64,000 nt of DNA. Source: an uncultured Bacteroidota bacterium. Lineage in GTDB: Bacteria; Bacteroidota; Bacteroidia; Bacteroidales; UBA12077. The stretch spans positions 1 to 64,000 of the forward strand of contig CAJXLK010000024.1 of assembly GCA_913055635.1 (NCBI GenBank), in the 5' to 3' direction. Positions 11,544 to 58,907 of the stretch are shown here, piece by piece (the first letter of the stretch is position 1; each line of letters starts with the position of its first letter). Made by a program: the position numbers and the translations under genes. The notes beneath the pieces were generated by a model that saw nothing but the letters and a program-made list of their open reading frames with translations, had not been told where the DNA came from and did no database searches.

Positions 11544-11805
11544 CCCCCGCTTAGCGGGGTCCGCTAAAATTCACCCCCGCTTAGCGGGGTCGGCTAAAAA
11601 CTCACCCCCGCTTAGCGGGGTCGGCTAAAAACACACCCCCGCTTAGCGGGGTCGGCTAAAAACTCACCCCCGCTTAGCGGGGGTCACTAAATTTAACCCC
11701 GCTTAGCGGGGTCGGCTAAAAACACACCCCCGCTTAGCGGGGTCGGCTAAAAACACACCCCCGCTAAGCGGGGGTCACTAAATTTAACCCCGCTTAGCGG
11801 GGTGT
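11544..11805. repeat. Nine tandem 30-31 bp repeats with a perfect palindromic core
   Basis: Units begin at 11544, 11574, 11605, 11636, 11667, 11697, 11727, 11758 and 11788. Each contains CCCCGCTTAGCGGGG, a palindrome but for its central base, followed by a linker such as TCGGCTAAAAAC. The copy at 11758 has the central base reversed (GCTAAGC). The array starts 9 bases after the metH stop and lies before metF. Each core could form a 7-bp hairpin in RNA. The linkers are near-identical, so this is not a CRISPR array. The 189 bases between the array and metF show nothing recognisable. Confidence 0.93.
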
Positions 11806-39949: not shown

Positions 39950-42900
39950 ATGAAGAACATCTACCTTCGGACATTTCGATTGCGCTTACTTCCTAAGATA
40001 CTGCTGCTGACTGGATGGTTTATATTAATTCATTTCTCTTTATGGGGACAAAATTTGACCATAGATCCTCCCCATGATGCTGATTCAACTTTTGTGATTA
40101 AGGATACTGTATATCAAGATAAAATAAATACAGGAGCTGCAAGTGGAACCTTTATATCTGGAACAGGCGTATTAAATTTCAATAATAATACCGCAGATTA
40201 TAATCCTTCACTCGCAGGTGTCGGGATTGATTCCATTATATATGAAAAGAATTCAAGCTATGATACCCTCGCAATCCGGGTTATCCCTTACATCAGTTAT
40301 GACACCACCTTCACGGCATGTGAGAACGATGGGGCTTTTAACATCAATCATGCGGTAGATACACCAACGACGGGGACTCCACATTACTATGGGACTGGCG
40401 TAAATTCTTCAACCAATGAATTTGAGCCCCTTTCAACCTCCGGACACTCCGGTTCGCCCTATAAAATATACGCGGAAAAGAGCGTTACGGTGGGCAGCAA
40501 TACCTTTACCAATACCGATTCGACTACTGTAACGCTGAAGGCTGCGCCAGACCCTTTTTCCTTAATGAAGGATACGGCTTACTGTCCTTCACAGGGTGGG
40601 GTGAAATTGTGGATGGAAAATACCCAGAACAATTCTTATCAATATGTATTACAAAAAGGAGGTGCCGATATAGATACGGTTCCGGGCGAGACTGATTCGG
40701 TGGCTTTTCCCGGAACCTATACTGCCGGCAGCTATACGGCTTATGCTTATGTAGGGGGATGCAGCACCCCCATGAACGATACGGTTACAGTCTCAGAAAT
40801 AACGGCTGATTCGCCCAACCTGGAATACATCACCGATTCAGCCTTTTGTCCGGGTGGGGCCGGCGTTGAATTGGGACTTGATTCCAGTGAGGTAGGGGTC
40901 AATTATATCCTCCAGCAGAATGGGGTGGATGAAACGACTGTGGCGGGTACTGGTTCGGCCATTTCTTTTGGAACATACTATGATTCGACCGGCCATTATG
41001 CTGTAGAGGCCACCAATGGGGTTTGTGACACATCCTTGAACGATACCCTGAAAATTTATAAGAAGAATGAACCGGAAGTTTATACACTTGACGGCCCGGG
41101 AGGTTTTTGCCAAGGGGAGTCCAGTATCAAACTCTATCTGCCCAACTCTGAAACCGGCATTCGGTATGATCTTATAAAAGATGGCAGCAAATTTACTGAT
41201 CAGTATGGCAGTACCGGTGATTCGGTTATTTTTTCAATTACCAGCACAGACACTTATCATGTTATAGGTGTTGATACTGCCACAGATTGCACAAGTCCCA
41301 TGGATGACACCCTAGATATTGTGGATTATTCGCCGGTCAATGCTTCGGTGGCTTTTACAGATTCCACTATATGTAATGGCGAATCAATTGTGCTGGAAGC
41401 AAGCGGTGGAGATAGTGCCTACAGTTGGACCCCGGTTTCTTCCCTGGAGACATCTTCCACTATCAGTAATCCCGAGGCCCAGCCTTCTAATACCACAACT
41501 TACGAAGTGGTTGTTACAGATGATAATGGATGTCAGGAAACCAAGGCGGTAGATGTTACTGTAGCCGGAATACCTACAGCCAATGCCGGGACAGATACTT
41601 CAGTATGTAAAGGGGATAGTGTGCAGTTGGTAGCAGACGATGTAACAAGCTCTTTTCCTGATGCATCGTATTCATGGACACCTACAAGTACCCTTACGGA
41701 TCCAACCAAGCGGAAAACCTATGCTGATCCAGAAACCCCTACCCAATATACCCTCGAAGTAACAAGCAAATTTGGATGTTCCAGCACCGATCAAATTACG
41801 GTGGATACCAACGCTGTCCCTAATCCTTCATTGTCTGATTATACGGTATGTAACGGTGAAAGTGTTACTCTTAAAGCCTCAGGAGGCAATTCTTATTACT
41901 GGCCGGATCTTGATACCACAGCTCAGTCTGTTACAGTTAGCCCGAATTCAACCCGCGATTATACTGTGGAAGCTTCCTATACCAATGGATGTTCTGGTAC
42001 TACCGACGGGCAGGTTCAGGTAAATCCTACCCCTACGATTACAGCTACTGCTACAAAAAATCCCGTTTGTGCCGGGCAAATGGATACAATTAATACAACT
42101 GTTTCCGGAGGTACTAAACCCTATCAGTCTTATGCATGGAGTCCATCTGGTTCCGGAGACCAGGTGGATTTTCAGGCGCCTACCGGCGTGTCCGAGGTCA
42201 CTTATGGCGTTACTGTGACGGATAACAATAATTGCCAGGATTCAACTTCGGTGACTGTGGATATAAATGCGTTGCCTAATGTTTCCATAAGTGGCCTGGA
42301 TAGTGAATATTGTTCGGATGAAGGACCTGATCACATTTACGGAACTCCCGAAGATGCAAATGGTGAATTTTTACCTGCTTCTTATGTCACTGATGATGGT
42401 GATGGAACTGGGGTATTCGATCCATCAGCATTGTCTCCTGGTAATTATACTATTGCGTATCGATATAAAACAGATCCACAGGGTTGTGTGGATAGTGCAT
42501 TAGCTACCACTACCATTTCTTCCGATACCATACCCGATCCATCCATAAACGGGCTCGATAGCACCTATTGCGACAATGATGCCAGCACCTATATTATCAC
42601 GGGAAGCCCTGAGGGTTCCGGTGGCAGTTTTACCTATAGTCCGGCTTCCGGCATAACCGATAATGGATCGGATACTGCTTATCTGACACCCCAGGATGTG
42701 GGCACAGGAGATCATACCATCACCTATACCTACACCAGTCCTTCGGGAGGATGTTCGGCCTCCGTTACCGAAACCTTCCAGATTGGCGTGCCATTTACCT
42801 TCAACCTTGCTTCGAATTATTGCGCCAGCCAGGATACGTTTCAGCTTATGGTTGATAAGCCGTCGAATACAGCACCGGGGAAATTTTATGTATACGATGA

Positions 42901-45900
42901 AGATGGTGACAGCATCTTATATAGTGCTAAGGAGGGTACATCTGAAGCTGTTTTTGATCCCTCTTCCCAGGGACCAGGCGTTTATGGGGTCAGGTATGAG
43001 GTGGCCGATACGGTTATGAATTGCAGCAATTCCGATTCAGTTGGGTTTACGGTTCATTCGAATCCTGATGCAGGCTTTACCCTGGATGGGATACCCAATG
43101 ATTCGATGCATTTTCGATATTGTAATAGCGATACAATAATTACCCTCGATGGCCAGGTGAATGATGGCGGTACGTATAACGGTGCGGGTGTTCCCGGGGG
43201 TAGCAACAAATTTGTACCCGGCGATACTACAGCCGGTGATTACTGGCTCACCTATACCTATACCAATTCAACCACCGGGTGTTCCAGTACTGACAGCGCC
43301 CGTGTAACGATCAGACCCTCTCCGGATGTAAGCATTAACGGGCTGGACCCGGGCTATTGTACGAGTCTTGACACGGTCTATGAAATCACGGCTTCTCATG
43401 ATTCCGGTTATTATTCCACCAATCCCTCGAGCGACTCCTCGTTGTTCTATGACAAAGGAAGCGGTCTGGCCGATTTTAATCCTTCAAATGCCCCTTTCAC
43501 CGGAACCTTCGAGATAACATTCACGGCAGTGGGCATGAATGGATGTAGCGGTGATACCACTCGTGCTGTGAGTATTGACGCTCCTCCGGCTGTCTCTATT
43601 ACAGACCTTCCCGATACGCTCTGCTGGAATGCCCCTGCCGACAGTGTATATGGCAATCCTACAGATGCAAACGGGAAATTCATCGGCCCTTCCTTTATAA
43701 AGGATAATGGCGACGGCACGGCGGTCTTTGATCCCGATTCGGCATCCTCCCCGGGTACGTATGATGTTATTTACCGCTATACCACTCCGGTAAGCGGATG
43801 TTTGGAAACCGATACCCAGTCTGTAACGATCCTGCCTCTGCCCAAAACCTATAGCCTGCAAGGTGGTGGCTCCTATTGTTCCGGAACAGGAGGACGGGAG
43901 CTTCGGTTAAGCGGAAGTGACAGCAGCGTGCGTTATCGCCTTTATAAATACGGAAGCTTGGTGGAAGATACATTAAGAAAGGATGACGGTGAATTTACAT
44001 TTGAAGGTACCTGGCTGGCAGGTGGCTATTCTGTTAAAGCCAAAAATACCGGTGGATGCACGGTGGCTATGAACAATACCGATACCATAACAGAAAAGTA
44101 CCCTCCGGAAGATGCTTCTGGTCTTTCAGGTACAGATACCCTGGCGATCGGGGGAACAGGCTCTTATTCGGTACCGGAGCTGCAGCATACCACCAGTTAC
44201 GTCTGGAACCTTCCATCAGGTGTTACCATTTCCTCAGGAAGCGGCAACCGGTCGATAGATGTTTCGGTTGACCCAACGGTCGCGCCGGGGACCGATTCTG
44301 TTTCGGTTTATGGAACAAATGGATCAGGGTGTGGAGATGGAAATCCCGACTATTATGAGGTCTACATACTTCCCAAACCAGAAGCTGTCACCTCCCTTAA
44401 AGGCAAAGATACAGTATGTGCCGGTTCTCAGCCTTTAAACTATGAGGCGGCTCCGCAACCTCTGGATTATGCTGATTCCATCCATTGGACCGTACCCTAT
44501 GGTTTTACCATTACCAGTGGCAGGGAGACCAGCAGCATTGTTTTGGATGTAGCTCCCGACGCTTCTTCAGGCTTTGTTGCAGCCCGCGGTGTTAATGCTT
44601 CGGGAAAAGGCCCTGCTGATTCCATTCATGTTTATGTAAGCGAACCCCCGGAGATAAACGTCAGCGGCCTGAATTCGGCCTATTGCAGCAATGATCCTGC
44701 CACTACGATTGTTGCTACTCCTGATTCCGGCACTTATAGTTCGTCCTGGAGTACCACTGTTTTTGTGGATAGTGGCGATGGTACTGCCCATTTTGATCCA
44801 TCGGGATTATCCGGTGGGTCTCCGTCTACAGATAGCATCCGGTATTCAATCACCAGGAATGGATGTAAGGCAGACACCACTATGGGTGTGACCATCTATA
44901 ATGCACCGGGCGTTGCTATTTCAGGGGTTCCGGACATCATCTGTGAGAATGCCGGCCCTGATACCCTGGAGGGAAACCCGATGGATTCCAACGGGCAATT
45001 CACAGGCACCGGTGTTGAGGATAACGGAGATGGCACAGCGGTTTTCTATCCCGATACCGCCGGTCAGGGAAATCATGCTGTAACCTATAGTTATACCGAT
45101 CCTGCCACCAGTTGCATGAGCGATACGACCTACTATATTTATGTAAAAGAGCCCCCTCAGACATATACCCTCACTGCCGACGGCAGCTACTGTGAGGATA
45201 CCCCCGGCGATACCATCACCCTTTCCGGTGGGGAAACCGGCGTGCGTTATAGCGTTTATGAAGGAGGTACCGCTCTGCTTTATGATACCACCCTTTCGGC
45301 AAATGTGGGGAGCGACTGGGTCATTGATACGGCCTTTACATCGGGCACCTATACGGTCAAAGCAACGGCTAATGGTTGTACAGCATGGATGGACAACTCA
45401 TTGGAGATCACCAAAGCGCTTTTGCCATCTGATGCTAATCCCCTGTCGATGACAGGAACAGATACCGTAATCCTTGACGGAAATGGCTCTTATAGTGTTG
45501 ATCCGATAGCCAACACCACCACCTACCACTGGATAAAACCTTCTTCAGCTGCATTCCAGCTGAAGGAGGACACTACCGATGTAACGATCGACTTTACAGG
45601 CGTCCCCGCCGGCGATCATCAGATCGGGGTGTATGGGGCTAACCATTGTGGTCAGGGAGATACGGCATATTACGACGTTTATATCCTGCCTAAACCTTCC
45701 CAGCCGGATTCGATAAGCGGTGATAGGATAGTCTGTGCGGGAGCTGTAAATGTCACCTACGATGCCCATCCCTATCCACTTGCCCATGCTGACTCTGTAG
45801 AATGGGATGTACCCGGGGGCTTTACAATAGTAGATGGAAAAGGTACCTACCGGATCAAGGTTGATGTGGCCGGTTCCGGAGCTGTTAGCGGTGATATCCG

Positions 45901-48900
45901 TGCCAGAGGTGTCAATGCCTCGGGTAAAGGCCCGTGGGTTTCTTATCCGGTTAGGGTCAAATCGATACCCGATATCAATTTCAGCGGCATTTCTTCCCCC
46001 TATTGTGATTATGCCCCTGAGGATACGATCACGGCCCTTCCCGATTCCGGAAGTTATATTCGTCCCTCTACATGGACTTCGGCAGCCTTACAGGATCTGG
46101 GCAATGGAAAGGCAGTGGTTGATCCCGGAGCACCTGGTGAAGGAAGCTACGAGATTGGCTATGAGATAGATCTGGGCGGTTGTAGTGTGGATACCAGCAT
46201 CCAGGTAGAGATTAACGCAGCGCCGAATGTAACTTTCGATGGTTTGCCCGGAGACACGACAGATCTGTGTAAGAATAGCGGATCCTTATCATTGAAAGGC
46301 AATCTGGCCGATTCCAACGGATATTACAAGGGTGCCGGCATTAATGACCATCATGACGGTACAGCCACTTTGGACCCGACCCATTTATCTTCCGGAGTAT
46401 ATGATATTGCCTACCACTATGTCGATACCACTTCAGGATGTATGGATACAGCCACTCAACAGGTAAGGATATTGAAAGCACCGCAGAATTATGCTTTGAA
46501 AACAGTATCAGGAGAATATATTTATTGTGAAGATATGCCGGGACTTGAGTTTAAGCTGAGTGGCGGTGATAGTGCAGTAACCTATGATCTGATTAAAAAT
46601 GATAAAAATGATGTTGCTTCTCGCACTTTGAGCAGTGATGGCTCATTCACCTTTAATGGTTATTGGGAAGAAGGCACTTATTCTGTGTATGCTGTTACTT
46701 CCAGGGGATGTAAGGATACCATCAGCAATACGGTAACAACTTATGAAAAGGCCCTTCCTGAACCGGCGCCCCCGATCTGGGGTGACAGTATAGTACCGGT
46801 GAATGACAGTGGCTCGTATCATGTGGCTCCTATAGCAAATTCTTCCTCCTATCAGTGGATTTATCCATCTGATGCTTCGATTACCGGTAATGGATCCCGC
46901 GAGGTTGCCATATCCTTTGATTCTGCCGGGCTGGATTCTGTTGGAGTTTATGGCCGGAATGATTGTGGACAGGGAGATACTTCCTATTTTAAAGTAGATG
47001 TTCTGGACAAACCGGCACCCATTGATTCCTTAGCAGGAGATACATCGGTTTGTGCCGGATCTGTCAACCTCGAATACGAAGCTTTCCCTGGACTCACCCG
47101 GATTGATTCGATTGAATGGATTCTGCCAAATGGTTTTACTATCACTTCCGGCAAAAAAACTCAAAGCATTGAAGTAAGCATAGACAGCTCTTTTGCGGAT
47201 AATGGATATGTCGTGGCCAGGGGTGTTAATGGTGCCGGCAAGGGAAAGGCAGATTCACTGTTTGTAAGGGTTCATCCCATCCCAGCCACCAATAGCGTAA
47301 GTATTTCAGGAGAATTGACCTGTGCAGTGGATTCGGTATTGATAGATGGAAACAGCACTACCTCCGGTGCAAGTTATACCTGGGTGGGTGGTAACAAAAC
47401 CGTTCATGATGATTCTGTCTATGCTCCGCTGAAGGGCGAATATACGCTGACGGTGGAAGCCTATGGTTGTACCCACGACACCACTGTAACGGTTACCGAA
47501 AACAAAACCACCCCTTCGGCCGGCATCGCCACCCCGGATACACTGACCTGTGATAACCCACAGGAGACCCTTCAGGCCAGCACCGATGCCGGCAATCCGG
47601 GATTTGTATGGACAGCTGGTGCAGGTGGAAATATCGTCTCGGGCGACTCCACAGCCACCCCAACCGTCGATGCCCCCGGCTCATATACCGTGACGGTGGT
47701 GGATTCAATCAATGGTTGTACCAATACCGCCACGATCACCGTGGAAGAAAATGTGACGCAACCCAGCTTCAGCCTGAATGACCCCAGCGACATCACCTGT
47801 GCCAGGGATACGGCCGTGATATCCACCCCGGGCGTATCAGATGCCACCTATCAGTGGAGCGGCCCCTCCGGCGGCATCGTCAGCGGACAAAACACCGCCT
47901 CCGTTGTGGTTGGTAAGACAGGCGACTACAGCCTTACCGTGACCAAGAACAGCAATGGCTGCAGCCGGACCAAATCAAGAACTGTCAGTTCCGATTCGAC
48001 CCAACCCGCCATCAACAGTTATACAAAAACCGGGGATATCACCTGCCACCACAATCAGGTGAACCTGGAAGTGGATGTGGATACCACCAATGTAAACTAT
48101 ACGTTTGAACCGGTCTCCAGTGGCAACATTGTATCGATCAACAACAACATTGCCACGGTGGATGCTGAAGACCGCTATGCCGTTGTCGCTACCTATGCAG
48201 CTACCGGTTGCAGCATTAGCGATACCCTTAAAGTGAACGATCTGCGCCACCCGGTCAATGTAAACATCGATGCGGCTTTCACCACCCTTACCTGCAACCA
48301 GCCCTATGATACTTTGACGGTGACTTCTGATTTGACCGACAAGGAAGTGGAGTGGAAGGCGACCAATGGCGGCCATATTCATTCGGGCCATTATACCAGC
48401 CAGGCCATTGTGGATTCGGCCGGCAAATATACGGCTACAGTAACCGATACCACCACCGGGTGCCACAATAGTGAATTTGTGGAGGTCAACAAGGATTTTT
48501 CGGCGCCTGTGTTCAACGGCATCACCAAAAATCCGGACAGCCTCACCTGTAAGAGCGATGTTACCCTGGTGGCCGATGTATCCGGTGCCGTTTCCTATTC
48601 CTGGAGCGGGCCTGGAAACATTTCACCTTCCGATCAGGATTCGGTGGAAGTGGATCAACCCGGCACTTATACCCTGGAGGCCACTGCTGCCAATGGTTGC
48701 CCTTCAACCGACAACGTGGCGGTGCCGGCCGATACCAGTTCCCCCTCAATGACCCTGCACACCAATTATGACGATATCACCTGTACCAACCAGAAGAATA
48801 CCCTGGAGGTGTATTCCAGCACCTCGGGCGTTACCTATCACTGGAGCCAGACCACCGGCAGCGGCAACCTCTCGGATAACAATGTCCAGTTTCCCGAAGT

Positions 48901-51900
48901 CGACGGGGCCGGTACCTTTAAGGTGGTGGTTACAGATGCTGACAACGGCTGTACCACCGAAGACCAGGTTAGTGTAGATACCAACTATACCCTGCCGGTT
49001 ATTGACAATTTTGAAGACAACCCCGACAGCATTTCCTGTGCCAACCATACGGTAGAGCTGTTGGGTTCCTCCTCCACCACCAACGCGGATTTGATGTGGA
49101 CGGTAAGCTCGGGCAGCGGCAATATCTATGATGAAACCACTGAAACACCCACCGTGGATAAGAAGGGGGAATACACCCTGACGGTGACCCACCCCACGAC
49201 AGGTTGCCAGGTGGACAGCAGTGTGACAGTCGATAATAATTTTGCTCAGCCCGTTGCAGAGGTCGATCAGAATGTGGGCCAGATCACCTGTAATGTCGAT
49301 ACACTGCAGCTTGACGGCAGTGCTTCGACGGGCGTGAACTTTAACTGGAATGCCGTCAATGGCAGTGCTTTCCATCCGAACGATTCGGTTGCAAAACCCT
49401 ACATCACTTCCGACGGATTGTATATCCTTACTGTGGAGCATCCCCACAGCGGTTGTACGGATAAGGACTCTGTGGAAGTCAAGCGCAACAATTCGGTACC
49501 CAGGATCACGATGGGTGATGTCAGTGCCGACACCCTGAATTGCGCGGTGGACAGTTCCATATTAAAAGTCGATTACGTGGATCAGCCGGATTACTGGTGG
49601 TCAACCACCGACGGGAACATCACCAGCGGGGCCAATACCACCACCGTGGTAGTGGATGCCCCAGGCACCTATACCTTTACCGCTGAAAATCCCACTACCG
49701 GCTGTACCAATTCCAAATCGGTGACCATTGAAGAGGAGACCACCCAGCCCACTTTTACCCTTTCGGCCAATAAATTGACCTGTACGCGCGATACGGTGCA
49801 AATCCATACCGACGTGGGTTATGCCACCGATCCAAGCCGCGTCTCCTACGCCTGGACATCCAGCGGCGGGCAGATCATTTCGGGCGATGAAAACCTGCCC
49901 AATCCCAGAGTAGTTAAGACAGGCACCTACTACCTGACCCTGACCGATGATGTGAACGGATGTACCCGGACCAGGAGCATCAAGGTGACCGCGAGTACCA
50001 CCCCACCAAATGTTTCCCTGGATACACCGAACGATCTGACTTGTTCGCGAACCAGTGTGGACTTGCAGGCCAACACCAATATTTCCGATTCGTCTTACCT
50101 GTGGACCACCACCGGCAGCGGAAATATTGTCAATCAAACCACTGCCACGCCTACGGTGGATGCCATCGGCTGGTATACGGTAAAGGTGACCAACGAGAAG
50201 AACGGTTGTTATAGTGAAGACAGCGTTTATGTGGACAAAAACGTTTCCACACCGGATGTTCATGTGGATCCGTTCAACGACATCACCTGTTCGCGCACCA
50301 CGGTGGAGCTTTTCGGCAGTTCATCACAGGATGTCTACTTTAGCTGGAGCGGCGGACCCGGCAACATCAGCGATCCCAATTCGGCCCTGACCGAGGTGGA
50401 TGGGGCCGGCGATTATACCCTGAAGGTTAAAGACAAGGTCAATGGATGTAGCAACGACACGACCGTCACAGTGGAGGCGCACACCGACCTGCCATCCAAA
50501 CCGGTGGTCAGCGATACCGGCAGTTGCTATGGCCAGGCCAATGTGGCGTTGACCGCCACGGGAAGCAACAACCGCTGGTACAGTGAAGCATCCCAGGATC
50601 CCTCAACCCTTGTAGGGACTGGCGACACCTATACACCGACCATGAGCAGTGTGGGCGATTCGGTCTTTTATGTCACCCAAACCGGCTCCAATGGCTGCGA
50701 GAGCCCGGCCACGGCAGTGACCTATACGGTCTACCCCCTGCCCGATGCGCCTTCGGCAACCGATAAGGAGGTGTGCTTTGGTCAGGCCAATCCCTTCCTC
50801 GAGGGCATGCCTGCCAATTCCGACTATACCATCAACTGGTATAATACCTCCGACAGCCTGCTGTCGACATCTTATCAGTATCAGCCAACCCCAACGGCTC
50901 CCGGGACCTATCCTTTTGGCGTGACCCAGGTGGATGCCAACGGATGTGAAAGCCCGCAAACACAGGCCTATTTCACCATCCATGATCTGCCTCCTGCCCC
51001 GATGGTCGACTCCGATACCCTGCGGGTATGTGAAGGCGCCCCGGCCAAAACCTTTATTGCCCATGGCGACAACATCAGGTGGTACAACACCACCCCGCCG
51101 GCCAGTCCCATCGCCTCGGGCAATATCTTTGAACCCGATGTCAGCGGTGTGGGTCAATATCATTTCTATGTAACCCAGTCCGAATCCTCCACCAGTTGTG
51201 AGAGCGACTATAAGCGGGTGGTCTACATCATTCAGCCCAATCCCGATCCCTATACCCTAAAGGGAGGCGGAACCTATTGTGAAGGCACCGGCGGCAGGGA
51301 GATTTATCTGGACAATTCGGTGGATACGATTTCCTATGAATTGCGGCGCGATGGCAACACCTATATGACCAACATCTCCGGCGATGGCGATTCACTGACT
51401 TTTGGACGGATCAAGCCGGAAGGAACCTATACCGTTTACGGAACGGCGGGCAACGGCTGCACCGCCAGGATGTCGGGAACGGCTGTGATCTCGGTCGATT
51501 CCCTGCCCGAAGCGGCCGGAACCATCGTGGGCGATTCAGTGGTCTGCCAGGGCGCTACAGCCATAGATTACACCGTGCCGGAGATTCCTTATGCCGATCA
51601 ATATGAGTGGAGCGTGCCGGCCGGTGCTGAAATCATTGCCGGGGAGAATGCCAGGACCATTTCGGTCAACTATTCCGATTCCGCTGAGAGTGGCCAAATC
51701 ACCGTTTATGGGGCCAATGCCTGTGGCGACGGGCCTGTGTCAACCGGCCATGCCATTACGGTCAATGCCCTTCCGGGACCGGCCGATAGCATCATGGGCC
51801 CCGGCGGTGTTTGCCAGGGTGCTGACGGGGTCACCTTTGAAGTGCCCAACATTGAAAACGCCTCGGAATATGTATGGTCGGTACCTGCCGGGGCCACCAT

Positions 51901-54900
51901 CGTGGCCGGTGAAGGCTCGCGAACCATTATGGTCGACTTCGACGCCTCCTCCACCGGTGGAATGGTTCAGGTACACGGACGCAACAGCTGCGGCACGGGA
52001 GCCTCTTCACCCGATCATACCATTGATATTACTTCAAAACCCATCATCTCGGCCGAAACTTATCAATCCATCTGTTCTTCTTCCGATTCCCTGATCGCCA
52101 GCGATCCGGGTTCGGCCACCATTCAATGGGCCTTGATCGATGGCCAGGCCAATATCGCCCATCCCACCCAGTTTGAAACAGAGGTGACCAACCTGGGCAC
52201 CGGCCGCAATGCCTTTGAGGTGACCCTCACCCAAAATGGCTGTTCCGATGTGGATACCGTCGTGATCGAGAACAACCAGCGGTTTGTGAATGCCGGTGCT
52301 GATCAGACCCTTTGTTCCAGTTCCTATACCCTGTCGGGTACCCAGCCAGCGAGCGATGTAAGTGGCAATTGGTCGATCGAACAGGGCTCAGCTAGTTTTG
52401 CCGATGCCGGCCGGTATAATACCGAAGTGACCAGTCTGCAGAAAGGGGTGAATGTACTGCGCTGGACCCTCACTAAAAATGGATGCAGAAGCTATGATGA
52501 AGTAACCATCGTTAACGACAGCCCCACCCAGGCCGAGGCAGGCATCAACCAGCAATTGTGCAGCGATTCCACCTATCTGGATGCCAACACACCTTCGCGG
52601 GGTGGCGGGCAATGGACCATTTTAAACGGGTATGTGGATTTTGAAAGCCCAACCGATCCCAATACCCAAATCACCCATGTGGCCAAAGGCGATAACCTGC
52701 TGCAGTGGACCATCACCAATAATGCCTGCAGCACGGCCGATACGGTTTCCATTGTCAACAATAAAGTAGAAGTGGAAGCTGGCCCCGATCAGGTCATCTG
52801 TGGCTATCAAACAACCCTCGATGCTTTGACTCCTGCCAAGGGAGACGGGCAATGGTCCATCCTCAGAGGATCGGCCACCTTTGAAAACCGTTCCGATCCG
52901 AAAACCAAGGTATACCTGTTGGTCTCCGATACTACCGTCCTTTCCTGGGATGTATACCATAACGGATGTGTCTCAAGCGACAGCATGACCATCGTCAACA
53001 ATTCGCCCACCAAAGCGGATGCAGGTGACGACCAGGAGATATTCCAGGATCATACCTTCATGGAGGCCAACGATCCTTCAAAAGGTTCGGGTGAATGGAA
53101 ACTGCTGGCCGGGTCAGCCAATATCTCAGATAAGACCAGCCCCTCTAGTGAAATTACCAACCTGGCTTACGGGGAGAACCTGTTCCAGTGGAAAGTGACC
53201 TATAAGAATTGCATCTCCATTGATTCTGTAGTTATTGATAACCAAAGCACCGGCAACATCACCGCCGGCAACGATACCACCATTTGTACCGATGAAATGC
53301 GGCTCAGTGCTTCCGAGCCGGTCCAGGGCGAAGGCGAATGGTCTGTGGTGAAAGGCTCCGGCACCTTTGGAGATAAAAATTCCAATACCACGATGGTTCG
53401 GAATCTCTCGCGGGGTGAAAATGTCCTTAAATGGACCATCATTGGCAACGGGGTGATTTCGGACAAGGTGACCATCATCAATAACGCCCCCACCCAGGCC
53501 AATGCCGGTCCGGATATGACCTATTGCCAGGATTCGGCGGAACTTTCTGCCAATCATGCTTCCATTGGCCAGGGTAAGTGGAAGTTGATCGCCGGAGAAG
53601 GCACCTTTGAAGATACCACGGCCAATAACACCATGATTCATAATTTGGGCACCGGTAAAAACACTTTGCGTTGGACCATCACCAACCAAAAATGCCAATC
53701 CACCGATGACGTGGTGATTACCAACAACAAGCCCACGACGGCGGATGCCGGTGTGGATCAAACCCTTTGTTCAAGCGAGGCCACCCTTTACGGCAACTCA
53801 CCTTCTGTGGGTCAGGGCCTGTGGACCCTGGTCAGTGGTTCGAATTCCGTGGAATTTCAGGATCAGACGGTGGGCAATACCCGGGTTACAAACCTGGGCC
53901 GGGGTGAAAACACCCTGCGCTGGACCATCACCAATGGCAATTGTGTCTCTTCGGATTCGGTAACCATCATTAATGACAACCCGACACCCGCCAATGCCGG
54001 CCGGGATAAATCCATCTGTGTGGATTCCTTCGAGCTCAATGCCAGTGAAGCGGTGATTGGCCAGGGCACATGGACCGTGATCAATGGTTATGGAGAATTT
54101 GTCGATTCATCGCGGCACAACACCCAGGTCAGGAACCTGGATAAAGGAGGTAATGTTTTACGTTGGAGCATTGAGCATAACGGATGTATTTCGTACGATG
54201 AAGTCGAGATCTCCAATGACCTGGTAGAAGCTGAGGCCGGCTATGATCAGAGCCTTTGCACCGACAGCACGTATCTCTCGGCCAATAACCCGGGTCGTGG
54301 GGAGGGCTACTGGTCAGTGATTACCGGATCGGCCTCTTTCGAAGACGCTTCCGATCCCAATACCAATGTAAAAGGATTGGATCACCGCAGCGACAACATC
54401 CTGAAATGGACTGTTTCTCATAAGTCGTGTGTCTCGACCGATCAGGTCACCATTGAGAACAACAGCCCGGGCATTGTTTATGCCGGTGAAGATGCCGAAG
54501 TGTGCGATGATGTTTATTACCTGAGCGCCAACCCGAATTACATCGGTGAAGCCCATTGGGAAGCTTTGAGTGGTGGGGCAGATATTGTCAAAGATTCTTC
54601 GGCCAATACGATGGTCAAGGATATGGGTCTTGGGCGCAACACCTTCCGTTGGACGGTTCGTCGGGATGGATGTGTCAAGCACAATGATGTGACCATTTAC
54701 AACAATATGCCGGTGGATGCCTATGCCGGGGAAAATGACACCATTTGCTCCACAACCACCACGATGCACGCAGAAGAGCCCCCGTTTGGCACCGGTCAGT
54801 GGAGTGTGGTGGCCGGCTCCGGTGAGTTTGCCAACGACAGTGCCGGCAATACCACGGTTACCAACCTTTCCCAGGGGGCCAATACTTTCAAGTGGTCCAT

Positions 54901-56485
54901 CTACAACGGCCGTTGCTCAACCACAGATGAGGTGACCATTGTGGTCAACCGGCCCAATGAGCCACGCGCTGGCGCCGATCAGGCCATTTGTGCCGATTCA
55001 ACCTCCCTCCAGGCCAATTATCCCGGTCCGGGCCAGACCGGCCGCTGGGAGGTGGTCGAAGGAAGCGGTAAGTTTGAAGACCGGAATGACCCCCATACCA
55101 AGGTTACCCATATGAGCCATGGAGATAACATTTATCGGTGGAACATCAGTTATAAGCAATGCAACCTCTATGATGAGGTAACCATCACCAATAAGATGCC
55201 CACTGAGGCCGACGCCGGTCAAAACATCGACGTATGCGGCGACCAGGTGCGCCTGAATGCCGTTCAGACTTCCATCGGCAACGGTCACTGGAGCCTGGTC
55301 AGCGGACAGGCTGAATTTGGAGACAGGAACGATCCCAATACAGTGGTCAGTAACCTGGGGTATGGACCCAATACCCTTCGATGGGAAACCACCCACGGTG
55401 AATGCACTTCCATGGATGAGATCATCGTCTCCAATAAAAAGGCCACGGCCTATGCCGGTGTTGACCAGGAAGTATACCGGGATTCCACCACCCTGGTGGC
55501 CAATAAGGCCATCCGCGGCGAGGGTACCTGGATCCTGCTGGGTGGCTCCGGTACATTTGCCCAGCCCCATTCGGCGCAAACCAAAGTGCGCGACCTCACC
55601 AATGGAGTCAACACATTCCGGTGGCAAATCAACAATGATGGATGCATCTCAGCCGATGAGGTGAGCATTACCTATTACGAAATGCCCAATCCTGAGTTCG
55701 ACGTCAGCCGGGACAATGGTTGCCCACCCCTTACGGTTCAGTTCTACAACGAATCGCTGAAGCTGAATACCGACTTTACCTGGAGATTCGGCGATGAGAA
55801 CATTTCAACCAATGAAAATCCGCGACATACATACTATCAACCCGGCCGCTACGAGGTCACTCTTAAGACCCAGGGCCCCGATGGCAGCAGTGTTTCCGAA
55901 GACACCACCATCGTGGTGCACGATCTGCCCGAAGCCCGGTTTGATGTGGCCCCCGATGTGCTCTATATTCCCGAACAGCACCTGCAGTGCTATGACATGT
56001 CCATTGATGCCGATCGCTATAAATGGCATTTCGGGGATGATTCCACATCCAACGAACCCAGCCCCATGCACCACTACCGCGATACCGGTACCTATGACAT
56101 CCGCCTGAAGGTTTGGTCACCCCACGGCTGTACCGATGATACGGTGAAACATGATGCAGTTACCGTCAAGCAAAGTGGTAAGATTAAGTTCCCCTCGGGC
56201 TTTACGCCCAATCCCAGCGGTCCGGTCGGGGGGCATTATAATGAAAACTCAAAGAGTAACAATATCTTCCATCCCATCGTAAAAGGAGTAAATGAATACC
56301 ACATGGAAATATTCAACCGGTGGGGCGTCAAGGTCTTCAGCACCGATAAGGTCGATGTTGGCTGGGATGGCTACTATAAAGGCAAACTTGCTGAAGAAGG
56401 TGTCTATATTTATAAGGTTCACGGAACCTACAACAATGGCACCCGGTTCGAAAAAGTTGGTGATTTTGTTTTAATCAGGAAGTAA
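39950..56485 (+). CDS. SprB-like giant adhesin (5511 residues), type B T9SS cargo
   Basis: This is the largest gene in the window. Signal peptide to about residue 34. Residues 35-1120 are mixed PKD/Ig-like and SprB-type modules (SGLDSEYCSDEGPDHIYGTP...). Residues about 1124-2447 are three copies of a five-module block. Residues about 2450-3513 are thirteen modules with an ITCxxDTxxL start, about 80 residues each. Residues 3513-4100 are mixed. Residues about 4030-5243 hold fifteen modules with an AGxDQxLCxDSxxLxAN start and LRWTITNxxC end. Then two PKD domains and a CHU_C/type B sorting domain (FPSGFTPNPSGP ... NIFHPIVKGVNEYHMEIF). SprB is the mobile gliding adhesin of Flavobacterium; the 3' neighbour is a PorP/SprF gene, 2 bases on, as in sprB-sprF. 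Whether this organism glides is not shown. Confidence 0.93.
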   Translation: MKNIYLRTFRLRLLPKILLLTGWFILIHFSLWGQNLTIDPPHDADSTFVIKDTVYQDKINTGAASGTFISGTGVLNFNNNTADYNPSLAGVGIDSIIYEKNSSYDTLAIRVIPYISYDTTFTACENDGAFNINHAVDTPTTGTPHYYGTGVNSSTNEFEPLSTSGHSGSPYKIYAEKSVTVGSNTFTNTDSTTVTLKAAPDPFSLMKDTAYCPSQGGVKLWMENTQNNSYQYVLQKGGADIDTVPGETDSVAFPGTYTAGSYTAYAYVGGCSTPMNDTVTVSEITADSPNLEYITDSAFCPGGAGVELGLDSSEVGVNYILQQNGVDETTVAGTGSAISFGTYYDSTGHYAVEATNGVCDTSLNDTLKIYKKNEPEVYTLDGPGGFCQGESSIKLYLPNSETGIRYDLIKDGSKFTDQYGSTGDSVIFSITSTDTYHVIGVDTATDCTSPMDDTLDIVDYSPVNASVAFTDSTICNGESIVLEASGGDSAYSWTPVSSLETSSTISNPEAQPSNTTTYEVVVTDDNGCQETKAVDVTVAGIPTANAGTDTSVCKGDSVQLVADDVTSSFPDASYSWTPTSTLTDPTKRKTYADPETPTQYTLEVTSKFGCSSTDQITVDTNAVPNPSLSDYTVCNGESVTLKASGGNSYYWPDLDTTAQSVTVSPNSTRDYTVEASYTNGCSGTTDGQVQVNPTPTITATATKNPVCAGQMDTINTTVSGGTKPYQSYAWSPSGSGDQVDFQAPTGVSEVTYGVTVTDNNNCQDSTSVTVDINALPNVSISGLDSEYCSDEGPDHIYGTPEDANGEFLPASYVTDDGDGTGVFDPSALSPGNYTIAYRYKTDPQGCVDSALATTTISSDTIPDPSINGLDSTYCDNDASTYIITGSPEGSGGSFTYSPASGITDNGSDTAYLTPQDVGTGDHTITYTYTSPSGGCSASVTETFQIGVPFTFNLASNYCASQDTFQLMVDKPSNTAPGKFYVYDEDGDSILYSAKEGTSEAVFDPSSQGPGVYGVRYEVADTVMNCSNSDSVGFTVHSNPDAGFTLDGIPNDSMHFRYCNSDTIITLDGQVNDGGTYNGAGVPGGSNKFVPGDTTAGDYWLTYTYTNSTTGCSSTDSARVTIRPSPDVSINGLDPGYCTSLDTVYEITASHDSGYYSTNPSSDSSLFYDKGSGLADFNPSNAPFTGTFEITFTAVGMNGCSGDTTRAVSIDAPPAVSITDLPDTLCWNAPADSVYGNPTDANGKFIGPSFIKDNGDGTAVFDPDSASSPGTYDVIYRYTTPVSGCLETDTQSVTILPLPKTYSLQGGGSYCSGTGGRELRLSGSDSSVRYRLYKYGSLVEDTLRKDDGEFTFEGTWLAGGYSVKAKNTGGCTVAMNNTDTITEKYPPEDASGLSGTDTLAIGGTGSYSVPELQHTTSYVWNLPSGVTISSGSGNRSIDVSVDPTVAPGTDSVSVYGTNGSGCGDGNPDYYEVYILPKPEAVTSLKGKDTVCAGSQPLNYEAAPQPLDYADSIHWTVPYGFTITSGRETSSIVLDVAPDASSGFVAARGVNASGKGPADSIHVYVSEPPEINVSGLNSAYCSNDPATTIVATPDSGTYSSSWSTTVFVDSGDGTAHFDPSGLSGGSPSTDSIRYSITRNGCKADTTMGVTIYNAPGVAISGVPDIICENAGPDTLEGNPMDSNGQFTGTGVEDNGDGTAVFYPDTAGQGNHAVTYSYTDPATSCMSDTTYYIYVKEPPQTYTLTADGSYCEDTPGDTITLSGGETGVRYSVYEGGTALLYDTTLSANVGSDWVIDTAFTSGTYTVKATANGCTAWMDNSLEITKALLPSDANPLSMTGTDTVILDGNGSYSVDPIANTTTYHWIKPSSAAFQLKEDTTDVTIDFTGVPAGDHQIGVYGANHCGQGDTAYYDVYILPKPSQPDSISGDRIVCAGAVNVTYDAHPYPLAHADSVEWDVPGGFTIVDGKGTYRIKVDVAGSGAVSGDIRARGVNASGKGPWVSYPVRVKSIPDINFSGISSPYCDYAPEDTITALPDSGSYIRPSTWTSAALQDLGNGKAVVDPGAPGEGSYEIGYEIDLGGCSVDTSIQVEINAAPNVTFDGLPGDTTDLCKNSGSLSLKGNLADSNGYYKGAGINDHHDGTATLDPTHLSSGVYDIAYHYVDTTSGCMDTATQQVRILKAPQNYALKTVSGEYIYCEDMPGLEFKLSGGDSAVTYDLIKNDKNDVASRTLSSDGSFTFNGYWEEGTYSVYAVTSRGCKDTISNTVTTYEKALPEPAPPIWGDSIVPVNDSGSYHVAPIANSSSYQWIYPSDASITGNGSREVAISFDSAGLDSVGVYGRNDCGQGDTSYFKVDVLDKPAPIDSLAGDTSVCAGSVNLEYEAFPGLTRIDSIEWILPNGFTITSGKKTQSIEVSIDSSFADNGYVVARGVNGAGKGKADSLFVRVHPIPATNSVSISGELTCAVDSVLIDGNSTTSGASYTWVGGNKTVHDDSVYAPLKGEYTLTVEAYGCTHDTTVTVTENKTTPSAGIATPDTLTCDNPQETLQASTDAGNPGFVWTAGAGGNIVSGDSTATPTVDAPGSYTVTVVDSINGCTNTATITVEENVTQPSFSLNDPSDITCARDTAVISTPGVSDATYQWSGPSGGIVSGQNTASVVVGKTGDYSLTVTKNSNGCSRTKSRTVSSDSTQPAINSYTKTGDITCHHNQVNLEVDVDTTNVNYTFEPVSSGNIVSINNNIATVDAEDRYAVVATYAATGCSISDTLKVNDLRHPVNVNIDAAFTTLTCNQPYDTLTVTSDLTDKEVEWKATNGGHIHSGHYTSQAIVDSAGKYTATVTDTTTGCHNSEFVEVNKDFSAPVFNGITKNPDSLTCKSDVTLVADVSGAVSYSWSGPGNISPSDQDSVEVDQPGTYTLEATAANGCPSTDNVAVPADTSSPSMTLHTNYDDITCTNQKNTLEVYSSTSGVTYHWSQTTGSGNLSDNNVQFPEVDGAGTFKVVVTDADNGCTTEDQVSVDTNYTLPVIDNFEDNPDSISCANHTVELLGSSSTTNADLMWTVSSGSGNIYDETTETPTVDKKGEYTLTVTHPTTGCQVDSSVTVDNNFAQPVAEVDQNVGQITCNVDTLQLDGSASTGVNFNWNAVNGSAFHPNDSVAKPYITSDGLYILTVEHPHSGCTDKDSVEVKRNNSVPRITMGDVSADTLNCAVDSSILKVDYVDQPDYWWSTTDGNITSGANTTTVVVDAPGTYTFTAENPTTGCTNSKSVTIEEETTQPTFTLSANKLTCTRDTVQIHTDVGYATDPSRVSYAWTSSGGQIISGDENLPNPRVVKTGTYYLTLTDDVNGCTRTRSIKVTASTTPPNVSLDTPNDLTCSRTSVDLQANTNISDSSYLWTTTGSGNIVNQTTATPTVDAIGWYTVKVTNEKNGCYSEDSVYVDKNVSTPDVHVDPFNDITCSRTTVELFGSSSQDVYFSWSGGPGNISDPNSALTEVDGAGDYTLKVKDKVNGCSNDTTVTVEAHTDLPSKPVVSDTGSCYGQANVALTATGSNNRWYSEASQDPSTLVGTGDTYTPTMSSVGDSVFYVTQTGSNGCESPATAVTYTVYPLPDAPSATDKEVCFGQANPFLEGMPANSDYTINWYNTSDSLLSTSYQYQPTPTAPGTYPFGVTQVDANGCESPQTQAYFTIHDLPPAPMVDSDTLRVCEGAPAKTFIAHGDNIRWYNTTPPASPIASGNIFEPDVSGVGQYHFYVTQSESSTSCESDYKRVVYIIQPNPDPYTLKGGGTYCEGTGGREIYLDNSVDTISYELRRDGNTYMTNISGDGDSLTFGRIKPEGTYTVYGTAGNGCTARMSGTAVISVDSLPEAAGTIVGDSVVCQGATAIDYTVPEIPYADQYEWSVPAGAEIIAGENARTISVNYSDSAESGQITVYGANACGDGPVSTGHAITVNALPGPADSIMGPGGVCQGADGVTFEVPNIENASEYVWSVPAGATIVAGEGSRTIMVDFDASSTGGMVQVHGRNSCGTGASSPDHTIDITSKPIISAETYQSICSSSDSLIASDPGSATIQWALIDGQANIAHPTQFETEVTNLGTGRNAFEVTLTQNGCSDVDTVVIENNQRFVNAGADQTLCSSSYTLSGTQPASDVSGNWSIEQGSASFADAGRYNTEVTSLQKGVNVLRWTLTKNGCRSYDEVTIVNDSPTQAEAGINQQLCSDSTYLDANTPSRGGGQWTILNGYVDFESPTDPNTQITHVAKGDNLLQWTITNNACSTADTVSIVNNKVEVEAGPDQVICGYQTTLDALTPAKGDGQWSILRGSATFENRSDPKTKVYLLVSDTTVLSWDVYHNGCVSSDSMTIVNNSPTKADAGDDQEIFQDHTFMEANDPSKGSGEWKLLAGSANISDKTSPSSEITNLAYGENLFQWKVTYKNCISIDSVVIDNQSTGNITAGNDTTICTDEMRLSASEPVQGEGEWSVVKGSGTFGDKNSNTTMVRNLSRGENVLKWTIIGNGVISDKVTIINNAPTQANAGPDMTYCQDSAELSANHASIGQGKWKLIAGEGTFEDTTANNTMIHNLGTGKNTLRWTITNQKCQSTDDVVITNNKPTTADAGVDQTLCSSEATLYGNSPSVGQGLWTLVSGSNSVEFQDQTVGNTRVTNLGRGENTLRWTITNGNCVSSDSVTIINDNPTPANAGRDKSICVDSFELNASEAVIGQGTWTVINGYGEFVDSSRHNTQVRNLDKGGNVLRWSIEHNGCISYDEVEISNDLVEAEAGYDQSLCTDSTYLSANNPGRGEGYWSVITGSASFEDASDPNTNVKGLDHRSDNILKWTVSHKSCVSTDQVTIENNSPGIVYAGEDAEVCDDVYYLSANPNYIGEAHWEALSGGADIVKDSSANTMVKDMGLGRNTFRWTVRRDGCVKHNDVTIYNNMPVDAYAGENDTICSTTTTMHAEEPPFGTGQWSVVAGSGEFANDSAGNTTVTNLSQGANTFKWSIYNGRCSTTDEVTIVVNRPNEPRAGADQAICADSTSLQANYPGPGQTGRWEVVEGSGKFEDRNDPHTKVTHMSHGDNIYRWNISYKQCNLYDEVTITNKMPTEADAGQNIDVCGDQVRLNAVQTSIGNGHWSLVSGQAEFGDRNDPNTVVSNLGYGPNTLRWETTHGECTSMDEIIVSNKKATAYAGVDQEVYRDSTTLVANKAIRGEGTWILLGGSGTFAQPHSAQTKVRDLTNGVNTFRWQINNDGCISADEVSITYYEMPNPEFDVSRDNGCPPLTVQFYNESLKLNTDFTWRFGDENISTNENPRHTYYQPGRYEVTLKTQGPDGSSVSEDTTIVVHDLPEARFDVAPDVLYIPEQHLQCYDMSIDADRYKWHFGDDSTSNEPSPMHHYRDTGTYDIRLKVWSPHGCTDDTVKHDAVTVKQSGKIKFPSGFTPNPSGPVGGHYNENSKSNNIFHPIVKGVNEYHMEIFNRWGVKVFSTDKVDVGWDGYYKGKLAEEGVYIYKVHGTYNNGTRFEKVGDFVLIRK
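43320..47290 (+). repeat. Higher-order repeat in the SprB-like gene: three copies of a ~440-residue block
   Basis: Each block has five modules in the same order, opening at about 43320, 44650 and 45973. Openers are INGLDPGYC, VSGLNSAYC and FSGISSPYC. Next come ITDLPDTLC, ISGVPDIIC and FDGLPGDTTDLC; then SLQGGGSYC, LTADGSYC and LKTVSGEYIYC; then two modules ending with RGVNASGKGP or RGVNGAGKG. Confidence 0.85.
47300..50490 (+). repeat. Thirteen tandem ~80-residue modules in the SprB-like gene
   Basis: Module starts are recognisable as ELTCAVDS, DTLTCDNP, DITCARDT, DITCHHNQ, TLTCNQPY, DSLTCKSD, DITCTNQK, SISCANHT, QITCNVDT, DTLNCAVD, KLTCTRDT, DLTCSRTS and DITCSRTT. Most modules end with a GCT or GCS and an acidic strand. 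Confidence 0.85.
52281..55680 (+). repeat. Fourteen tandem ~81-residue modules near the C-terminus of the SprB-like gene
   Basis: Modules start with AGADQTLC, AGINQQLC, AGPDQVIC, AGDDQEIF, AGNDTTIC, AGPDMTYC, AGVDQTLC, AGRDKSIC, AGYDQSLC, AGEDAEVC, AGENDTIC, AGADQAIC, AGQNIDVC and AGVDQEVY. A divergent copy precedes at about 52040. Two (EIF and EVY) lack the Cys present in the others. Confidence 0.88.
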
Positions 56486-57477: not shown

Positions 57478-57612
57478 TTCCATACCATTTTTTATGGGAT
57501 TCTCTAATTGCTTAAAAGGGCTTCTCGCGCTGATGGCTATTGAAGCTGATACTTGTATTGAGAAACCTTTAGCGGGTGAACAATTTTTCCTTTAAGCTGT
57601 TGGAAGATTATA

Positions 57613-57643
57613 TTTGGCGTTTTAGGAAAAGATTGTATATTTG
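57613..57643 (+). promoter_or_regulatory. Promoter of the histidine operon
   Basis: TTTG (57613-57616), exactly 19 bases, then TATATTTG (57636-57643): a perfect fit to the Bacteroides -33/-7 consensus. Transcription should start within a few bases of the leader ATG at 57651, leaving almost no 5' untranslated region. Confidence 0.8.
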
Positions 57644-57650
57644 CCCTGTT

Positions 57651-57719
57651 ATGCTAATCAAACAAAACCATAACCCCCGCGTACACCATCACCATCATCA
57701 CGATGGGGTGACCCCGTAA
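57651..57719 (+). CDS. hisL: First histidine leader peptide
   Basis: A 22-residue open frame (MLIKQNHNPRV, then six His, then DGVTP). The six His codons are codons 12-17 (57684-57701), with another His at codon 7. The stop is TAA at 57717. When charged tRNA-His is scarce, ribosomes would stall on the His run and free the antiterminator segment that begins 2 bases after the stop. It starts 7 bases after the promoter -7 element, with no Shine-Dalgarno sequence, so it may be read from a nearly leaderless mRNA. The CACCATC of the His run can also pair imperfectly with GATGGGGTG, which may serve as a pause hairpin. Confidence 0.92.
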   Translation: MLIKQNHNPRVHHHHHHDGVTP

Positions 57720-57720
57720 T

Positions 57721-57783
57721 GCAAAAAATTGCAAGCGAACGAAGATATCATTCAGGCCCGCAATTTTTTGCGGGCCTTTTTTG
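57721..57783 (+). promoter_or_regulatory. First his attenuator: antiterminator and rho-independent terminator
   Basis: Terminator: AGGCCCGCAA (57754-57763), TTTT, TTGCGGGCCT (57768-57777), then T6. Antiterminator: GCAAAAAATTGC (57721-57732) is perfectly complementary over 12 bases to GCAATTTTTTGC (57760-57771), which is the terminator's loop and inner stem. A ribosome at the leader stop codon (57717-57719) would cover the first segment and allow termination; one stalled on the His codons would leave it free. Confidence 0.9.
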
Positions 57784-57873
57784 TGTGCCATGCATGCGGG
57801 CTGTCGCGTTAAAACAGCAATGGGTTTATTTTTTAATCTGAAGACCTGCAGAAATTTTAACAAATACACATCA

Positions 57874-57948
57874 ATGATTCCATATCAACAACATACTGCT
57901 CACTTCCATCACCATCATCACCATCATCATCACGGGATACCTATCTGA
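57874..57948 (+). CDS. Second histidine leader peptide
   Basis: A 24-residue open frame (MIPYQQHTAHF, then nine His, then GIPI). His codons 12-20 lie at 57907-57933, with two more at codons 7 and 10, making eleven of 24 residues. The stop is TGA at 57946. It lies 90 bases after the first terminator and has no Shine-Dalgarno sequence but an A-rich upstream stretch, as is usual in Bacteroidota. No second promoter is evident, so it would be read only by polymerases that pass the first attenuator. Confidence 0.92.
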   Translation: MIPYQQHTAHFHHHHHHHHHGIPI

Positions 57949-57951
57949 TGA

Positions 57952-58027
57952 GGAAGACAAGCAGTATGCCATAACCTGAGAACCCATTTTTTCAAAGGCC
58001 TGCGGAGACTTCCGCGGGCCTTTTTTG
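57952..58027 (+). promoter_or_regulatory. Second his attenuator: antiterminator and rho-independent terminator
   Basis: Terminator: AGGCCTGCGGA (57996-58006), loop GACT, TCCGCGGGCCT (58011-58021), then a T-run; one T-G pair. Antiterminator: GGAAG (57952-57956), GCAG (57961-57964) and GCC (57968-57970) can pair in order with CTTCC (58009-58013), CTGC (58000-58003) and GGC (57997-57999), 12 pairs with one internal loop and one bulge. It begins 4 bases after the leader stop, matching the spacing in the first attenuator. Confidence 0.85.
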
Positions 58028-58049
58028 TTTCATCCAAATATGATTGAAT

Positions 58050-58907
58050 ATGACCCAATTGAAAATTGCCCTTCAAAAATCCGGCCGGTTGAGCGATAAA
58101 TCGATCGAGCTCATCCGTGAAAGTGGCATCAGCCTGACCAACGGCAACCGGAAGCTTTTATCGCTTTCCGCCAATTTTCCCCTGGAAGTGATGTACCTGC
58201 GCGATGATGACATTCCCCGTTATGTAAGCGATGGGATTGCAGATATCGGGATCGTCGGGGAGAATGTGGTGGAAGAGGAGCAGGCTCCGGTTGAGACCAG
58301 GGAGAAGCTGGGTTTTGCACGGTGCCGGATGTCGCTGGCGGTGCCCAAAACAGAGGCTTATGACGGTCCGGACGATTTCACCGGCAAACGTATTGCCACT
58401 TCGTATCCCACCATCCTGCGGAATTATTTTGCTGAAAAAGGCATCGATGCCGATATCCATCATATCAGTGGATCGGTGGAGATAGCCCCCGGAATTGGCC
58501 TGTCGCACGGTATATTTGACATTGTAAGTTCCGGAAGTACATTGATCAGCAATGGATTGCGGGAAGTAGAAAAAGTAATGGATTCCCAGGCCGTGTTGAT
58601 CGCCCCACCTTCCCTGGAGCAGGAAAAAGAAAAGATCCTGGCGGATTTGCTGTTTCGCATCCGGGCGGTCAAAAAAGCGCGCGACAACAAGTACATCCTG
58701 CTCAATGCCCCCAATGACCGTTTGGAGGAGATCAGCTCCCTGATCCCCGGAATGAAAAGCCCCACCATCATGCCCCTGGCCGATAAAGGCTGGAGCTCGG
58801 TTCATTCGGTGCTGAATGAAAACGATTTCTGGCAGGTCATTGACGCATTAAAGGAAAAAGGGGCGCAGGGCATCCTGGTGGTCCCCATCGAAAAGATGAT
58901 TGTTTGA
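58050..58907 (+). CDS. hisG: ATP phosphoribosyltransferase, long form
   Basis: The enzyme joins ATP and PRPP, the first and feedback-controlled step of histidine synthesis. The 285 residues from the ATG at 58050 match the long (HisG_L) form with a C-terminal ACT-like regulatory domain that binds histidine. Landmarks are IALQKSGRLSDKS, EVMYLRDDDIPRYV, DIGIVGENVV, and the PRPP-loop region ISGSVEIAPGIGLSHGIFDIVSSGSTL. The C-terminal domain covers about 210-285 (SPTIMPLADKGWSSVHSVL). No hisZ is needed for this form. It follows the second attenuator by 22 bases, so control is by both attenuation and feedback. The 171 bases to hisD are A/T-rich with no gene. Confidence 0.96.
   Translation: MTQLKIALQKSGRLSDKSIELIRESGISLTNGNRKLLSLSANFPLEVMYLRDDDIPRYVSDGIADIGIVGENVVEEEQAPVETREKLGFARCRMSLAVPKTEAYDGPDDFTGKRIATSYPTILRNYFAEKGIDADIHHISGSVEIAPGIGLSHGIFDIVSSGSTLISNGLREVEKVMDSQAVLIAPPSLEQEKEKILADLLFRIRAVKKARDNKYILLNAPNDRLEEISSLIPGMKSPTIMPLADKGWSSVHSVLNENDFWQVIDALKEKGAQGILVVPIEKMIV

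Follow-up and report, generated by a model that had tools for sequence, protein, structure and literature searches.

The segment at 57721–57732 is in all probability (about 0.86 by our estimate) the antiterminator strand of a ribosome-mediated transcription attenuator for the his operon. We refer to the whole stretch of 64,000 nucleotides that was analysed as the window. As the sequence-only reading had stated, the segment is the exact reverse complement of 57760–57771, the loop and the inner four pairs on both sides of an intrinsic terminator (terminator 1; Table 1). It starts two bases past the stop codon of a His-rich leader peptide with six consecutive His codons, and the same reading correctly placed it where a ribosome at that stop would cover it. 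Addition of a U57720–G57772 wobble extends the helix to 13 pairs. Elsewhere in the window, perfect 12-bp inverted repeats separated by 10–60 nt occur only in a repeat cluster at ∼ 11.7 kb. Leader 1, the segment and terminator 1 (together unit 1) are followed by a second His attenuator (unit 2, 57874–58028), absent from the earlier note, whose leader lies ∼ 150 bases downstream and has nine consecutive His codons. The locus has three features of the attenuator class: a His-rich ORF, an intrinsic terminator before hisG and, as judged by computation, a mutually exclusive antiterminator.

We propose that when His-tRNA is scarce a ribosome would stall in the His run (57684–57701) and leave 57721–57732 exposed. 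The exposed segment could then pair with its target emerging from RNA polymerase, the 3′ arm of the terminator being still incomplete, and read-through would follow. With ample histidine the ribosome would reach the TAA and mask the segment, so that the terminator (57754–57777) would form and transcription would end. Since a four-segment attenuator follows unit 1, polymerase would have to clear both, which would amount to AND logic.

Table 1. Features of the tandem his leader and its surroundings (positions in the window).
Feature	Positions	Strand	Description	Evidence
Candidate −33 element	57613–57616	+	TTTG; 19-nt spacing to −7 box	
Candidate −7 element	57636–57643	+	TATATTTG; ends 7 nt before leader-1 ATG	
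Leader peptide 1	57651–57719	+	MLIKQNHNPRVHHHHHHDGVTP; stop TAA 57717–57719; His run 57684–57701	His-rich leader, equivalent position in relatives
Putative antiterminator segment of unit 1 (segment 2)	57721–57732	+	GCAAAAAATTGC	Sequence; pairing with 57760–57771 conserved
Putative antiterminator target	57760–57771	+	GCAATTTTTTGC; terminator-1 loop and inner 4 pairs on each side	Sequence; relatives
Intrinsic terminator 1	57754–57783	+	Stem 57754–57763/57768–57777 (10 bp), loop UUUU 57764–57767, then U tract	
Leader peptide 2	57874–57948	+	MIPYQQHTAHFHHHHHHHHHGIPI; stop TGA 57946–57948	
Segment 1 of unit 2	57892–57900	+	CATACTGCT; pairs with AGCAGTATG 57960–57968	9 bp, 0/200 shuffles
Part of unit-2 antiterminator	57952–57956	+	GGAAG; pairs with CTTCC 58009–58013	
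Segment 2 of unit 2	57960–57970	+	AGCAGTATGCC; partner is segment 1 or terminator 5′ arm 57997–58003	
Intrinsic terminator 2	57994–58028	+	Stem 57994–58006/58011–58023 (13 bp) and U tract	
hisG, first gene of his operon	58050–58907	+		NCBIfam equivalog above cut-off

Covariation of the antiterminator pairing

Homologues of hisG are present in 192 of the 393 genomes of the order. Most of the relatives that bear a name are Bacteroidales MAGs, and on this basis the window probably belongs to Bacteroidales. We examined 124 hisG upstream regions for a His-rich ORF with a terminator no more than ∼ 140 nt behind it. Both were found in 98 of them, and 19 of the examined regions carry tandem His-leader units. 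We then took the sequence between the last His codon and the terminator of every unit and paired it with all terminators. Pairing was stronger with the own than with foreign terminators, both in energy (mean −17.2 versus −13.5 kcal/mol) and in contiguous helix score (17.8 versus 14.3), and in neither case was the difference reached in 10,000 permutations. Measured against shuffles of itself, this sequence showed a pairing excess of z = 15.7, a value that holds for the full set of 117 units as well as for 64 non-redundant ones. The top contiguous-helix score among these 117 comparable units belongs to unit 1 of the window. Because the paired sequences differ widely (TATGCAG/CTGCATA, CTCAGGCG/CGTCTGAG, GGTAAGC/GCTTACC), the relationship is one of covariation. 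The antiterminator helix has a median position from −3 to +4 relative to the first stop-codon base, which falls within the footprint of a stop-bound ribosome. The sequence-only reading had staked its antiterminator on conservation and covariation of the pairing in related genomes; both are found, so the proposal stands.

Close relatives with this version of unit 1 number only six (L001, L002, L003, L007, L052 and L063), with 12–14 of 14 positions paired; the match is weaker in the sister genus, mostly 9–11 of 14. When partners were reassigned among the six versions, 6 of the 720 arrangements were as good. A search of the families of two genomes (G037 and G064) for further close relatives gave none that were new.

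In L013 most of the pairing has gone. The first unit of this locus (∼ 260–340 nt upstream of hisG) has a broken His run (HHQH) and has lost the TGCAA antiterminator motif but kept its terminator; it looks like a leader unit in decay. Many near-complete genomes of one family (f1; G005, G008, G009, G010 and others of genus g2) are without any hisG match, which suggests repeated loss of histidine synthesis in that family.

Folding calculations on truncated transcripts

At equilibrium the full terminator 1 (−19.6 kcal/mol) is ∼ 6 kcal/mol more stable than the 12-bp antiterminator (−13.0 kcal/mol), so the choice between them must fall during transcription. The equilibrium fold of the complete leader is always the terminator and cannot test a switch; we therefore calculated partition functions for truncated RNAs, for which the ribosome edges and cut points had to be assumed. 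When the ribosome was placed at the His codons, leaving 57721–57732 free, the antiterminator was populated to > 99% up to 57773 and yielded at 57775. With the ribosome at the leader-1 stop (leading edge 57726–57730), terminator 1 formed. Structure prediction, which the sequence-only reading had named as a check, is thus consistent with the antiterminator role it gave to the segment.

The same simulation was applied to all 117 units. Near the decision point the mean terminator probability was 0.58 for a stalled ribosome and 0.85 for one at the stop. A shift of > 0.2 in the expected direction was seen in 60 units and one against it in three, about half of the 117 showing no clear simulated switch.

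Two segments, four segments and other explanations

Unit 2 fits the classical four-segment scheme, since a segment 1 is present that would sequester segment 2. Counterparts of this 1:2 stem, changed in sequence yet paired, occur in five relatives (L002, L003, L007, L052 and L063), and the GGAAG/CTTCC antiterminator has an 8-bp version in L002 and L003 (TGCGGAAG with CTTCCGCG). Over the order, pairing of pre-His with post-His sequence is enriched (z = 8.7). In unit 1 no significant sequestration of segment 2 by a segment 1 was detected (best pre-His pairing, p = 0.10), so that the description 'two-segment' fits this unit. The sequence-only reading had set the switch apart from the four-segment scheme of enterobacterial his leaders. 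This is valid for unit 1 within its genus; as a general contrast it fails, given the 1:2 stem of unit 2 and the enrichment over the order.

Could unit 1 really be a four-segment attenuator of the unit-2 kind, its weak segment 1 (for example CCAUC...GAUGG across the His codons, or upstream CCC with GGG) having been overlooked? We consider this unlikely, though it is the most serious of the alternatives. A His-codon hairpin is present in the folds of L001, L003, L007, L052 and L063, the order as a whole shows a mild excess of post-His/His-codon pairing (z 4.3), and the first unit of a sister genus has clear 1:2 pairing (GAATTTACAA with TTGTAGATTC). However, the His-codon hairpin does not overlap 57721–57732, the upstream strand of the best 1:2 pairing lies partly inside the presumed promoter, and the predicted fold of the naked RNA is the antiterminator rather than a 1:2 stem.

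With a 1:2 stem in unit 2 and none that is significant in unit 1, the prediction for RNA without a ribosome is termination at unit 2 and read-through at unit 1. L002 and L003 show the same contrast, most other tandem loci do not, and we rejected 'first unit default on' as a general rule for tandem loci, since it is clear only in these three same-genus genomes. For the window, we tentatively suggest serial His attenuators with opposite defaults, an arrangement that is possible but which we do not favour: two-segment unit 1, perhaps on a leaderless mRNA, would be on unless its leader is completed, and four-segment unit 2 would be off unless a ribosome stalls. If so, read-through would require that a ribosome begin leader 2 and stall in it, and that leader 1 not be completed.

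The complementarity itself might be a by-product of a palindromic terminator rich in A/T tracts, with a functionless upstream copy and with terminator 1 serving to end upstream transcripts. Part of it is indeed structural: the inner arms GCAA/TTGC are palindromic and self-complementary, so any GCAA...TTGC copy will match itself, and the information beyond the palindrome is the A tract against the U loop. Such tracts also raise the frequency of chance matches, although a chance origin is unlikely: 12 strict pairs were reached by only 3 of 5000 dinucleotide-preserving shuffles of the linker. Furthermore, hisG is present in four genomes of the genus, counting that of the window; three of these have tandem units and one, L004, has a single unit and lacks unit 1. 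Against this, the A tract and the loop co-vary in the relatives: in L002 the A tract shortens together with the U loop, L007, L052 and L063 have a C–G pair, and a G–A mismatch in L007 is G–U in L063. An equivalent relationship holds order-wide between unrelated sequences, and in all tandem loci a His-rich ORF precedes terminator 1. We therefore regard a by-product as very improbable. Slightly less credible still is a role of the segment chiefly as a local TGCAA/TTGCA hairpin, serving to space or pause polymerase or ribosome: the segment can fold on itself in this way, and the minimum-energy structure of the full transcript contains the hairpin, but it is worth only −3.5 kcal/mol, and L003 (UGCAAAAAUUUUUC) keeps the terminator pairing without a good hairpin counterpart.

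We also observed, at 57946–57974, that the TGA of leader 2 overlaps an ATG (TGATG). The downstream frame encodes MRKTSSMP followed by a stop and is similar to MRKGCSMP, the C-terminal end of the L002 leader 2. Leader 2 of the window was apparently shortened by a frame change, the RNA element being kept.

Relation to known attenuators and genomic setting

Ribosome-mediated his attenuation with a His leader is a classical form of control, and the tandem his leader of the window is a simplified and doubled variant of it. It resembles the enterobacterial his attenuator (HisL, RF00514) in its His-rich leader peptide, alternative antiterminator and intrinsic terminator before hisG. It differs in the lack of a significant 1:2 stem in unit 1, in its two tandem units and in a pairing centred on the terminator loop. 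The Rfam His_leader model (RF00514) scored 19.9 bits (57683–57780) and 26.0 bits (57915–58028), both below its gathering cut-off of 49 bits. The Rfam search gave no leader family at cut-off, and T-box covariance models gave no match in the window at gathering cut-offs and none at E up to 10 in 57550–58080. His attenuation appears common in this Bacteroidales-type order, and the enterobacterial model stays below cut-off at the locus studied here. Our data further suggest that a minimal antiterminator capturing the terminator loop can replace the classical scheme with a 1:2 stem. As both designs lie in one tandem leader, the benefits of each (default state, steepness, leakage) are directly testable.

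Amino-acid attenuators in Bacteroidetes/Chlorobi were reportedly listed by Vitreschak et al. in 2004. No account of his attenuators in Bacteroidetes emerged from the literature that we searched, an absence that proves little. According to a 2010 survey, leader-peptide systems had been known only in Proteobacteria and Actinobacteria until the survey itself added Firmicutes (PMC2965389). Candidate his attenuators in Firmicutes (Bacillus cereus group, Eubacteriales and Erysipelotrichales) have been reported (PMC9413887); like those of the window they combine non-enterobacterial His leader peptides with a terminator and an alternative antiterminator, but they belong to another phylum. The tandem attenuators of Salmonella mgtCBR likewise have two leader ORFs per mRNA leader (PMC3641672). 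Those ORFs sense different signals, ATP and proline, whereas the two leaders of the window are both His-rich, each with an intrinsic terminator of its own.

Downstream of hisG lie hisD (59079), hisC (60368), hisB (61642) and hisH (62764), all NCBIfam equivalogs; the gene upstream of the leaders is of the PorP/SprF type. The candidate promoter elements in Table 1 are to be compared with the consensus TTTG/TAnnTTTG as quoted in PMC7366714. A −7 box 6–7 nt before the ATG predicts a transcript start at or adjoining the start codon, in the window at 57650–57651, and hence a leaderless mRNA. Among the same-genus tandem genomes, the −7-like box lies 6–7 nt from the leader-1 ATG in three of three (including L002 and L003), and in L004 the gap is ∼ 20 nt. 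No His-run leaders other than leaders 1 and 2 were found in the genome. Two additional CAY runs were considered and rejected as His leaders; they are unlike leaders and apparently are either internal to other sequence or out of frame with it.

The cluster noted above at ∼ 11.7 kb (11697–11803) consists of CCCCGCTTAGCGGGG-type inverted repeats. Similar GCTAAGCG repeats occur in L002, where they precede the his leaders, and in L003, where they follow unit 2 and precede hisG. One ORF (39950–56485) encodes 5511 aa; it contains numerous repeated stretches, and inspection by eye suggests a type IX secretion sorting domain at its C-terminus.
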